64,000 nucleotides of DNA from Tepidiforma thermophila (lineage in GTDB: Bacteria; Chloroflexota; Dehalococcoidia; Tepidiformales; Tepidiformaceae). The DNA is taken from positions 434,001 to 498,000 of the forward strand of contig NZ_PDJQ01000001.1 in the NCBI RefSeq assembly GCF_002563855.1, in the 5' to 3' direction. The translations under genes and the position numbers were made by a program. Below the pieces are notes generated by a model. It did not search any database. It had not been told where the DNA came from and saw only the letters and a list, made by a program, of their open reading frames with translations. Positions 20,010 through 23,364 of the stretch are shown in pieces; the stretch's first letter is position 1; the number at the start of each line of letters is the position of its first letter.

Positions 20010-20262
20010 GGGCGAGGAGCTGACGGGGTCCTGTGCGGGAGGCCCGGCCGCAGGGCAGCGTTCCTCGATAGCGCAATTCGGTCGACGGCGTGTACAGGGC
20101 GCAGGGCAACCGGCGCGCCGGCGTTGCGCATCCGCTGCACCCGGAACGCTCAATCAGGGGTGCCGGCCCCGGGGAAGCCGCGCCTCCAGCCCAGCGTGAC
20201 GGAAGTGGAGGTCGAGGGAGCAAACGCGACAGCAGTTGTCGCTTTTGTGTCGCATTGTTGCA

Positions 20263-20292
20263 TTGCCTTAGCCGTCAAGGGACTGCTATGCT
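20263..20292 (+). promoter_or_regulatory. Promoter and repeat elements upstream of the BrxC/D-like cassette
   Basis: TTGCCT (20263-20268) and TATGCT (20287-20292) are spaced 18 bases, a reasonable sigma-70-type pair. Just upstream, GCGACA-GCAGT-TGTCGC forms a 6-bp palindrome, and TGTCGC is repeated directly after TTTTG, suggesting an operator. Transcription would start within about 15 bases of the first ATG, so the mRNA may be leaderless. The rest of 20010-20314 holds no gene I can support. Confidence 0.45.
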
Positions 20293-20314
20293 CCGGCCGC
20301 TTGCTATGGGACCT

Positions 20315-21094
20315 ATGAGCATCGAACAGCATTTCGAACAAATCGACAAAGAAACAGCGGCGCTTTCTGCGCTGGCAGCGAAGGTGAACCGGGCAACCCG
20401 GGCGGCCGCCAGGGCCGCGGCGGAGGGCAACCTGGCCGCGGCAGCACGCAATCTTCAAACGTGCGGGGCGTTGCTGGCCGAGGCCGCCGGCCAGGCCCAG
20501 GCGGCGCAGGCCGCGCTGGAACGGGCGCGGGCCCGGCTCGCCGAAGGCCCCGGCGACCTCATCAGGGAAGTCGGCGAGCGGGTCTCCGCCAGCGGTGCAC
20601 CGTGGCTGCCAACCGAGAATCCGTACGCCTTCGTCTCGTTCCCCGTGCTGGTCCGGTTCCTCGGCGATGGTGTCCGCATCGACCGCAAGCTGGTGCGCTC
20701 GCAGCGGCCGGGCGCAATCGCCGCAAGCATCGAGCGGGCGCGCACGGCAAAGGACGGCAATGCAGAGCGCATCCTCCGGCTGGTGTGGCGGGCCGCACGC
20801 GCAGCCGCAGGGCACGTGTCAACCCCGGTGGCGAAGCTGCCCCCAACCATCCGGGTGCCGGCGAAGGATGTCTTTGAAGTGCTCGGTCTGAACAACCCCG
20901 ACTACACGGAGGTCGACTTCACGCGCCACCTCTATCTGCTCGACCGCACGCGAGTAAGCGACATCGACGGCTACCGCCTGACCTTCTCGGCCTCGACCGG
21001 CACGCGGTCGGGGCGCCATTTCCGCATCCTGGATGAGTACGGGGCCGAACATGCCTACTACCTCGTCGAATTCGAACGGGTCACCAGCTCCTGA
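20315..21094 (+). CDS. Cassette protein A, coiled-coil protein of unknown function
   Basis: 259 residues; ATGs at 20288 and 20306 are alternative starts and none has a Shine-Dalgarno site. Residues 1-85 are an Ala-rich, charged coiled coil (ALSALAAKVNRATRAAARAA). The rest is a compact mixed domain with FVSFPVLVRFLGDGVRIDRKLVR and the end SGRHFRILDEYGAEHAYYLVEFER. I recognise no family. It overlaps the next gene by 44 bases, so it belongs with the two P-loop-type proteins that follow and may be a substrate- or DNA-binding partner. No membrane helix or signal is seen. Confidence 0.7.
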   Translation: MSIEQHFEQIDKETAALSALAAKVNRATRAAARAAAEGNLAAAARNLQTCGALLAEAAGQAQAAQAALERARARLAEGPGDLIREVGERVSASGAPWLPTENPYAFVSFPVLVRFLGDGVRIDRKLVRSQRPGAIAASIERARTAKDGNAERILRLVWRAARAAAGHVSTPVAKLPPTIRVPAKDVFEVLGLNNPDYTEVDFTRHLYLLDRTRVSDIDGYRLTFSASTGTRSGRHFRILDEYGAEHAYYLVEFERVTSS

Positions 21095-22037
21095 CCAGCC
21101 GGAGCGGCTGCCGCTTGACCTGTGGTTGCGCTGCCTCGAGGCCGAGTATCTCAAGACCTTCATCCCGCAGGGCGGGGCGGCAATCAAGGTAGCGGTGGTG
21201 CCGGATGAGTCGCGCGGAACTGTGAGAACTGCCCTCCGGGAGCGCCTCGAACACAGCGGGTTCACGGTGTTCGACCTTACGGAGGAAGCGGCGGGCGTTC
21301 ATTCGATTGAGCAGTTCTGGTTCGCCCTCGCGAGGCTGGTGGACTGGGAGCGCCTCGCCGGGCGGGTACGGGCCCGGGTTGCGACCGAAGCCGGGTATCC
21401 GCCGGGTCCGAACGGCGAGGCCTGCACGCTGGGCGAACTCGCCCGCAGCTACGACATTGAGGCGCACGAGGTGAGCAGGCAGTTCCAGCAAACGCTGAGC
21501 CGGCTGGTGTTCCGCGACTACTCGCTCGCGCTGGACTTCCGCAAGGCGATGGTCCGGCTGGTCCATGACCCGTTTCAGAACCCGGAGTCAATCGACGGCT
21601 CCTGCGCGGTGATCCGCCAGTGGTTCGACGGAACACTGCCATCCATCAGCCAGGTGCGCTCGGCGACCATATTCCGGCGGATTGACCGGACGAACGCCCG
21701 GCAAATTTTGCTCTCCTTCCTGCGATTGTTCACCAGGGAGTTCGGCCCGGCCGCAATCCTCGTCGACCTTACGAGGTACTACCGGGAAACGAATGAACGG
21801 GGCTATCCGCGATTCACCCGGCGGCAGCTCTTCGACCTGTACGAAACGCTGCGCGAGTTTCTCGACGCGGCGAGCGAGATGGAACGAACAGTGTTGTTCT
21901 TCCTGACGTCCCGGGAGTTTATTGAGTCAGAGCGGATCTCCTACCACCAGTACCGGGCCCTCCAGGCTCGCATCGAGAACGAGGTCCGGTCGCTGTCGTA
22001 CCCGAACCCGTGTGCTGCCATGGTGCAACTGCGATGA
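21051..22037 (+). CDS. Cassette protein B, BrxC/BrxD-like domain with degenerate P-loop
   Basis: 328 residues from ATG 21051 (ATG 21033 is possible). The opening LPLDLWLRCLEAEYLKTFI, then QGGAAIKVAVV near residues 40-50 and FWFALARLVDWERLA, recalls the BREX ATP-binding (DUF2791-type) proteins that pair with an active ATPase. The Walker A position reads GGAAIK rather than GxxxxGKS, so it probably does not hydrolyse ATP by itself. Later helices include VRSATIFRRIDRTNARQILLSFLRLF and PAAILVDLTRYYRE. It is the middle gene of a three-gene overlap series, its stop joined to the next start as ATGA. Confidence 0.72.
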   Translation: MPTTSSNSNGSPAPDQPERLPLDLWLRCLEAEYLKTFIPQGGAAIKVAVVPDESRGTVRTALRERLEHSGFTVFDLTEEAAGVHSIEQFWFALARLVDWERLAGRVRARVATEAGYPPGPNGEACTLGELARSYDIEAHEVSRQFQQTLSRLVFRDYSLALDFRKAMVRLVHDPFQNPESIDGSCAVIRQWFDGTLPSISQVRSATIFRRIDRTNARQILLSFLRLFTREFGPAAILVDLTRYYRETNERGYPRFTRRQLFDLYETLREFLDAASEMERTVLFFLTSREFIESERISYHQYRALQARIENEVRSLSYPNPCAAMVQLR

Positions 22038-23266
22038 CGATGACCTACCCCCTTGATATCGATGCCCGGCGGGCCACTGAGGCGCTCCGGAACGGCGTCC
22101 CGAACCGGTTCGCCGTCGCCGCACTCGGTTCATGGCAGACAGAAGCCGTCAGCCGGTTCGAGGCGCTCTGCGGGCAGGGCGACGCCGGGCCCCGGGGGAT
22201 GATGGTGCGCGGCGACTTCGGGACGGGGAAATCGCACCTGCTGATGCTGCTGCGGGAACGTGCCCGGTCGATGGGATATGCAACCGCAATGGTCGTCGTC
22301 TCGAAGGAATTGCCGCTCGGCAACCCTTCCCGGCTCATCCCGCGGATTCTGCTCGAGGCCGAGCTCCCCGATATGCCGGAGCGCGGCCTGCCGGTCATTG
22401 CGAGCCGCCTGAATTTCAACACGCGGGCGTACGCCGAGTTTTTCCGGTGGGCAGACCAGTGGCAATTCGGCGATGGATGGTGGTCGGCTACGCTCGCGCT
22501 CTATGAGCGGCTGCGGTCCGCAACGGAGGTGCTCGACAGCATTGCCAGGTTCTGGGCCGGAGAGCCTGCCCTGACCGCCTCCCTGGTCCGACAGCATCTC
22601 CGAGAATCGGGGCTCGCCGGCGCCCACTCCATCGGGAAGCTCCCGTCTGCGGAGAGCCTCAACTGGCAGCGGCTTACGTTCGGAGCAAGGCTGTGCGGAG
22701 CTGTCGGACTTCGAGGACTTGTCGTCTTCGTCGACGAGATTGAGCTGATTGCCCAGTACAGCCGCCTGCAGCGCATCAAGGCGTATGGCATGCTCGGCCA
22801 CCTTCTCGGCGGAGCCCCGAGGCCGGAGCTGGCCGATGCGCCGCTCGTCGTTGTCGGCGCCGTAACCCGGGACTTCGATGAAGCTGTCCTCGTGGCCAAG
22901 GGCGACGCCGACGAGGCGCCCGGCGTGGCGCGGCAGAAGTACGGCGAGCAAGCCGCCGAGGCTGTGAGTGCGGCGATCTCAGCCATCAGAGGCTCAGTCC
23001 CGCTCACGGCGCCGACCAACGAGACCATTGAGCAGCTGCTCCACAAAGTGACGGTGCTCTACCACCAGGCCTACCCGGACTGGACGCCGACCCGTCCGCA
23101 GACGCCGGAACTCCATTCGACAACGACGGTGCGTTCGGTGATCCGCAGGTGGATTACCGACTGGGACCTGCGGCGGTACTACGGGACCTCCGGGGAGATC
23201 GTCGAGACTGACATCGGGGCGACGCGAACGGAGGAGGACGAGGAGCTGGCGGGGGACGAGGAGTAG
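22034..23266 (+). CDS. Cassette protein C, BrxD-like P-loop ATPase
   Basis: 410 residues. RRATEALRNGVPNRFAVAALG leads to Walker A GDFGTGKS (residues 60-67), then MVVVSKELPLGNPSRLIPRIL. Walker B is VVFVDEIE (about 230-237). These match the BrxC/BrxD ATPase family (DUF2791/PF10923 type, from memory), found in BREX phage defence and in related stand-alone clusters. The ATP site is complete, unlike in its neighbour B. The C-terminus has a Glu/Asp-rich end. The ATGA overlap with B implies a joint complex. No PglZ, methyltransferase, Lon or helicase gene is nearby. Confidence 0.82.
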   Translation: MTMTYPLDIDARRATEALRNGVPNRFAVAALGSWQTEAVSRFEALCGQGDAGPRGMMVRGDFGTGKSHLLMLLRERARSMGYATAMVVVSKELPLGNPSRLIPRILLEAELPDMPERGLPVIASRLNFNTRAYAEFFRWADQWQFGDGWWSATLALYERLRSATEVLDSIARFWAGEPALTASLVRQHLRESGLAGAHSIGKLPSAESLNWQRLTFGARLCGAVGLRGLVVFVDEIELIAQYSRLQRIKAYGMLGHLLGGAPRPELADAPLVVVGAVTRDFDEAVLVAKGDADEAPGVARQKYGEQAAEAVSAAISAIRGSVPLTAPTNETIEQLLHKVTVLYHQAYPDWTPTRPQTPELHSTTTVRSVIRRWITDWDLRRYYGTSGEIVETDIGATRTEEDEELAGDEE

Positions 23267-23364
23267 CGGCATCCCTGCCGAGGTAGAGGATTCCCCGCAT
23301 GGGGGCCGCAGGCCGGCAGTAATCGCCGCCGGCACAGCTCCCCGGCAGCAAAGCCGGCACCGCG

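Follow-up and report, generated by a model that had tools for sequence, protein, structure and literature searches.

ATPases of the BrxC/BrxD type are found in a number of phage-defence systems, and a compact three-gene cassette of Tepidiforma thermophila (genes A, B and C) raises the question of what such ATPases might do when they are encoded apart from BREX partners. The window, a stretch of 64,000 nucleotides (positions 434001-498000) of a 2.74-Mb single-contig genome, carries the three genes intact on the forward strand, with products of 259, 328 and 410 residues and with translational overlaps of 44 bases and then ATGA, as an earlier note on this DNA had described. That note had also seen no BREX partners nearby, and this held for the whole 64 kb, among whose 69 ORFs PADLOC found no PglZ, methyltransferase, BrxL/Lon or BREX helicase at E<1e-15. 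With about even confidence, the cassette is read here as a BrxD/ORC-like, helicase-recruiting ATPase module composed of a dead B, an active C and an adaptor A, probably directed against invading DNA (Table 1).

Table 1. Features of the A-B-C locus (window coordinates)
Feature	Position	Strand	Remarks
Gene A	20315..21094	+	259 aa; helical hairpin (coiled coil) at the N-terminus, winged-helix-like region at the C-terminus; matches no known family
Gene B	21051..22037	+	328 aa; BrxD-like ATPase relative lacking the P-loop
Degenerate P-loop slot of B, ~residues 50-57, VPDESRGT	21198..21221	+	By alignment to GRPGSGKT of L042 B
Gene C	22034..23266	+	410 aa; active-looking, predicted BrxC/BrxD-type (ORC/Cdc6-like AAA+) ATPase
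Walker A of C, GDFGTGKS, residues 60-67	22211..22234	+	Motif in 94/96 C ORFs
Walker B of C, VVFVDE, residues 230-235	22721..22738	+	DE-x-E motif in 95/96 C ORFs
Candidate operator GCGACA-N5-TGTCGC-N5-TGTCGC	20226..20253	+	Half-sites with 11-base period
Segment absent in G022 (closest relative)	20029..23354	.	~36 bp of C 3' end left behind upstream gene, a deletion scar

The product of gene C belongs to the PF10923 ATPase family (46.8 bits, E = 2.7e-12, against a Pfam gathering score of 22.2) and also matched the PADLOC BrxD model (E = 8e-10), and the intact Walker A and Walker B motifs ascribed to it earlier were both present. Forty-one columns were invariant among 14 C homologs, the window protein included, and the Walker A pattern was missing from only two of the 96 C ORFs, both of them pieces of one split gene (L043), in which the motif reads ADFGAGKS.

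Gene B proved to be a relative of C that has lost its P-loop. The window protein alone matched PF10923 weakly and below the cut-off (14.9 bits, E = 0.013), and 15 of 16 homologs in its family matched at E<0.01 (best 6e-15). The G-x4-GK[ST] motif that C keeps was found in 0 of 52 B homologs and in 0 of 37 N-terminal halves of fused proteins. GGAAIK, which the earlier note had placed in the position of the P-loop, is instead a motif conserved across B proteins that lies just before the slot, its GG invariant in all 52 homologs (52/52), whereas the slot itself aligns to VPDES-RGT. Direct profile comparison of B with C was not significant (hhalign probability 2.9%), the C profile scored no better on B than on decoys, and the relation of the two was established only through an intermediate from a distant A-B-C locus (L042, 7156-10439), where the P-loop is intact in B as well as in C. 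The B protein of this locus, with the P-loop GRPGSGKT, matched PF10923 (E = 5e-31), the B profile (E = 7e-53), the C profile (E = 3e-9) and its own C neighbour (E = 1e-9), and as a query it recovered B homologs across the phylum. Because the same P-loop-bearing protein is matched by both profiles, B and C are products of a duplication, and B of the main clade has lost its ATP site; the view of B as a degenerate member of the ATPase family of C was thereby upheld, and the L042 locus could serve as a reference for the ancestral state. The nearest PDB fold to the model of B (pLDDT 90.7) was the BrxC ATPase dimer 9zdx (probability 0.92, E = 0.029), with the BREX complex 9zll also among the best and archaeal ORC2 further down; these fold matches, though not significant, are suggestive.

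Gene A of the window matched nothing in Pfam, PADLOC and NCBIfam beyond weak coiled-coil-type matches, and its confident model (mean pLDDT 94.2) contains a helical hairpin, in agreement with its earlier description as an unrecognised coiled-coil protein. The model runs from long helices 3-36 and 40-76 through a short beta segment and a further long helix to a strand-helix-helix-strands arrangement, and from this topology the C-terminal end possibly resembles a winged helix. A fold search with the model against solved structures gave no match with E below 0.1, and the PDB matches of the A profile, which were designed helical bundles, were dismissed as coiled-coil noise. That A is the source of specificity is a guess.

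A first scan of the sequence collection with window C alone as query found nothing, and a scan of genome contigs with a C alignment recovered 368 C relatives, from which 79 loci were kept for examination, spanning Chloroflexota, Nitrospirota, Acidobacteriota, Actinomycetota, Bacillota, Thermodesulfobacteriota, Myxococcota, Gemmatimonadota, and others. As the earlier note had expected, A-B-C was a conserved unit among the loci examined: A lay upstream of B and B upstream of C in loci from the family and the phylum, and the A profile recovered homologs in 16 of the 16 loci fetched. Presence was patchy, at 3-11% of genomes (for C in whole genomes, 4/38 members of the family, ~13/400 Chloroflexota genomes at E<1e-40, and 11/117 genomes in the class of one Nitrospirota relative), and closely related C proteins occurred in different phyla. 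More neighbouring BrxD-like ATPase matches were seen in Chloroflexota at L161 (G061:C401:1-14000) and L162 (G205:C14), and these seem not to belong to the A-B-C family.

The suggestion that the three genes form a whole, minimal system did not hold for the related loci generally, since a helicase directly follows C in 37 of the 79; yet ~17, mostly Acidobacteriota, have the trio without a recognised helicase, and 21 have a B-C fusion. An SNF2 helicase, E, followed C in 28 loci, 24 of which also encoded D, a small conserved protein of ~190 aa that matched nothing in Pfam, and among four E proteins scanned, a C-terminal Mrr nuclease was present in the two from D-bearing loci and not in the two from D-less loci. 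A distinct, XPB/PbeA-like SF2 helicase, H, followed C in nine loci, with an upstream protein X in six of them; X and H occurred in Chloroflexota too (L034). The fusions, nearly all from Nitrospirota, were ~765 aa or more and usually present in two tandem copies, and none of the 21 fused loci had a helicase adjoining them. The rest comprised two loci at contig edges, one with D and no recognised E (L052), and one with a truncated fused form (L111); ORFs in the 79 loci were called mechanically, and a rarer partner could be overlooked. Thus, given the frequency of helicases after C, the trio of Tepidiforma is possibly reduced, while the natural fusions imply that B and C are physical partners. 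In Nitrospirota, the tandem fusion genes adjoin A (L065 7907-13952 and relatives), and one genome (G434) had a third, larger fusion on another contig (866-aa open frame); histidine-kinase/response-regulator and SDR genes next to the fused form were dismissed as ordinary neighbours.

The two helicases had different closest relatives among known systems, E matching best to ZorD and DpdE and H to PbeA. E resembles ZorD (an SNF2 helicase with an Mrr-like nuclease, E = 3e-71) and DpdE but is shorter, and no ZorA/ZorB motor or Dpd set was seen beside it; ZorA and ZorB were absent from the PADLOC hits among the neighbours scanned, a general rather than gene-by-gene scan. The match of H to PbeA (E = 1.7e-59) was confined to the helicase part of that protein, residues 248-625, and left out the PLD/HKD nuclease part at its N-terminus; neither the PbeC ABC-ATPase of PbeABCD nor phosphorothioation genes were seen.

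The ATPases likewise recall named systems. Shango consists of the TerB protein SngA, the ATPase SngB and the helicase SngC. The cassette resembles it in encoding a same-family ATPase with an SF2 helicase, and L042 and the fused proteins also match SngB; however, no TerB protein was found (A matched no TerB model in Pfam and PADLOC), the cassette's ATPases are paired, and its helicases are different. In type 2 BREX, the stand-alone ORC/Cdc6-like ATPase BrxD (PF10923, NF033438) lies beside the SF2 helicase BrxHI, with which it is predicted to pair and which it may load (PMC12839542). BrxD is nevertheless single and active, with no dead paralog and no A, its locus has PglZ, PglX and PglW, and BrxHI is Ski2-like, in contrast to the SNF2 or PbeA-like helicases here. 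BrxC and BrxB also combine an active ORC-like ATPase with an inactive P-loop protein, and BrxC is the nearest solved fold to the B model, but the inactive partner BrxB is a STAND protein, and BrxC is ~1200 aa (PMC12839542), whereas B and C share one BrxD-like ancestor. The cassette is highly unlikely to be a piece or a subtype of a named system, for instance type 2 BREX or Shango: the matches of C to BrxD and of L042 and the fused proteins to SngB point that way, but C reached only 37 bits against the NCBI BrxD equivalog NF033438, far from its 350-bit cut-off, and no PglZ, methyltransferase, BrxL, PglW or TerB recurred in the 79 related loci. The earlier note had allowed that relatives might always carry the genes beside a helicase and a methyltransferase, as part of a known system; helicases adjoin fewer than half, and since neither methyltransferase nor PglZ accompanies A-B-C in the loci examined, the cassette is not a fragment of BREX. 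By the sequence features tested, it belongs with the PF10923 ATPase family and with neither BREX nor Shango.

Comparison within Tepidiforma bears on whether the window copy still works. The closest relative, G022 (91% DNA identity), aligns up to window position 20028 and resumes at 23355, with a membrane-protein-like gene in place of A-B-C; the ~36 bp before that gene match the 3' end of C (23245-23280), and thus G022 once carried the cassette and then deleted it. G025, of the same genus, has kept the trio, with the membrane-protein-like gene after it; a frameshift, perhaps a sequencing or assembly error, splits C in G025. The membrane-protein-like gene (~410 aa) precedes a dodecin-like gene in G022, G023 and G025 and has been lost from the window lineage, at 23281-23354. 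Tepidiforma C had a very long branch in the comparison of C proteins, and long branches, one frameshifted copy and one deletion together make relaxed selection possible. The window genome has no E ortholog (its best SNF2 match scored 163 bits, versus ~690-980 for true E), and in the same taxonomic family an SNF2 gene is kept after C in L007 and L008. Such observations would fit a decaying, non-working remnant of a larger A-B-C-helicase operon that has lost its helicase-nuclease, which we consider unlikely, as the window ORFs retain their overlaps, the invariant columns of C include the window protein, and the trio stands alone in ~17 other loci; on the reading preferred here, the window copy may still work.

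In the helicase-recruiting module proposed above, C would be the ATP-hydrolysing ORC/Cdc6-like AAA+ subunit of BrxD type, and B, its paralog without ATP binding, would be a structural or regulatory partner, the two forming a mixed complex on DNA to which A would serve as a DNA-binding adaptor through its coiled coil and possible winged-helix end. In relatives, the module would load or control the adjacent helicase, either SNF2 E (often with Mrr nuclease and D) or XPB/PbeA-like H with X, and module and helicase together would probably target invading DNA; the Tepidiforma trio, with no helicase in cis, would use one in trans or act alone by binding or blocking DNA. The loci themselves show gene order, paralogy, loss of the P-loop, B-C fusion, adjacency to two unrelated helicases and patchy spread across phyla; complex formation, DNA loading and an anti-phage role are inferred, and a loader or recruiter is favoured by the use of a common ATPase core with two unrelated helicases, together with the proposal that BrxD loads BrxHI (PMC12839542). 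Replication origin complexes likewise combine active with inactive subunits, a parallel to such a dead/active pair. More broadly, and with confidence somewhat short of even, A-B-C may be the core of an undescribed, widespread DNA-targeting immune family, in which a dead/active ORC-like pair, sometimes fused, loads interchangeable helicase-nuclease effectors and can act without an effector in cis. If so, it would be another recurrent system, seen by the searched defence catalogue only as a weak BrxD hit; open-access papers on DUF2791, PF10923, BrxD-like proteins and SNF2/Mrr combinations did not describe the cassette. The family displays gene duplication, a lost ability to bind ATP, fused proteins and exchanged helicase partners side by side, and it offers a compact, testable case for asking whether BrxC/BrxD-type ATPases load helicases onto DNA.

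Defence as the role is favoured by the patchiness of the cassette, its exchange between phyla and a nuclease-bearing partner. The expectation that it would lie among other defence genes was borne out weakly, as only a few of 106 neighbouring proteins looked defence-like (PADLOC hits counted without a matched control), and neighbours of A-B-C loci were mostly housekeeping genes. No homolog was found in plasmid and phage collections, a single short viral-contig match being set aside because it covered the P-loop region only. These two observations argue against the preferred explanation, as do the lack of an E ortholog in the window genome, the long branches, frameshift and deletion in Tepidiforma, and the non-significant direct comparison of the B and C profiles. 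Combined with the conserved flanks around the Nitrospirota loci, the housekeeping neighbours and the absence from plasmid and phage collections leave room for a DNA-repair or genome-maintenance module, in which A with B-C would load a helicase-nuclease at damaged rather than phage DNA. Helicase and exonuclease-like partners would suit such a module, the latter being an RNase_H_2 protein (PF13482) beside A-B-C in L097, which we take to have the fold of YprB/MrfB. Against a repair module stand its presence in only 3-11% of genomes, the loss from a sister species and the movement between phyla, and we regard this alternative as rather unlikely and defence as the likelier role.

Upstream of A, the TGTCGC palindrome noted earlier is real (GCGACA-N5-TGTCGC, 20226-20242), but ~0.4 such sites per window are expected by chance with one mismatch allowed. 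The direct repeat TGTCGC-N5-TGTCGC (20237-20253, 62-78 bases before A) is better conserved and recurs in a similar place upstream of A in Tepidiforma G025 (L006 8730-8746). Exact copies numbered five in the window genome (G000) and 16 in four genomes, against two for the reversed control; with one mismatch allowed, the excess was small (26 sites versus 18 in the control, in G000). In the window genome, one exact site is flanked by cas10 and a Csx1-like gene, with an equivalent site in G023; others precede an SNF2 helicase gene (G000, G022) and a globin-like gene (G023, G025), lie ~4 kb from a DpdE/DruE-like operon, or fall inside a SoFic-like gene, those neighbours without a PADLOC hit being named by reading of the sequence. 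These few sites hint at co-regulation of the cassette with defence genes. Alphaproteobacterial LexA boxes have an 11-base period, which the direct repeat shares, a point in favour of repair, but none of the other exact sites that were read adjoins recA or lexA. The cas10 site belongs to a type III CRISPR locus with cas10, a divergent Csx1/Csm6-like gene and cas1 (L203 4131-8922; G000:C1:794130-798921), whose divergent promoter shares the direct repeat with the promoter of A. Elsewhere in the window genome, a DpdE-like SNF2 helicase (E = 1e-245) lies beside a 1764-aa DruE/YprA-like helicase ORF (L204 2532-10642; G000:C1:2460531-2468641), probably a DISARM/Druantia-like defence operon.
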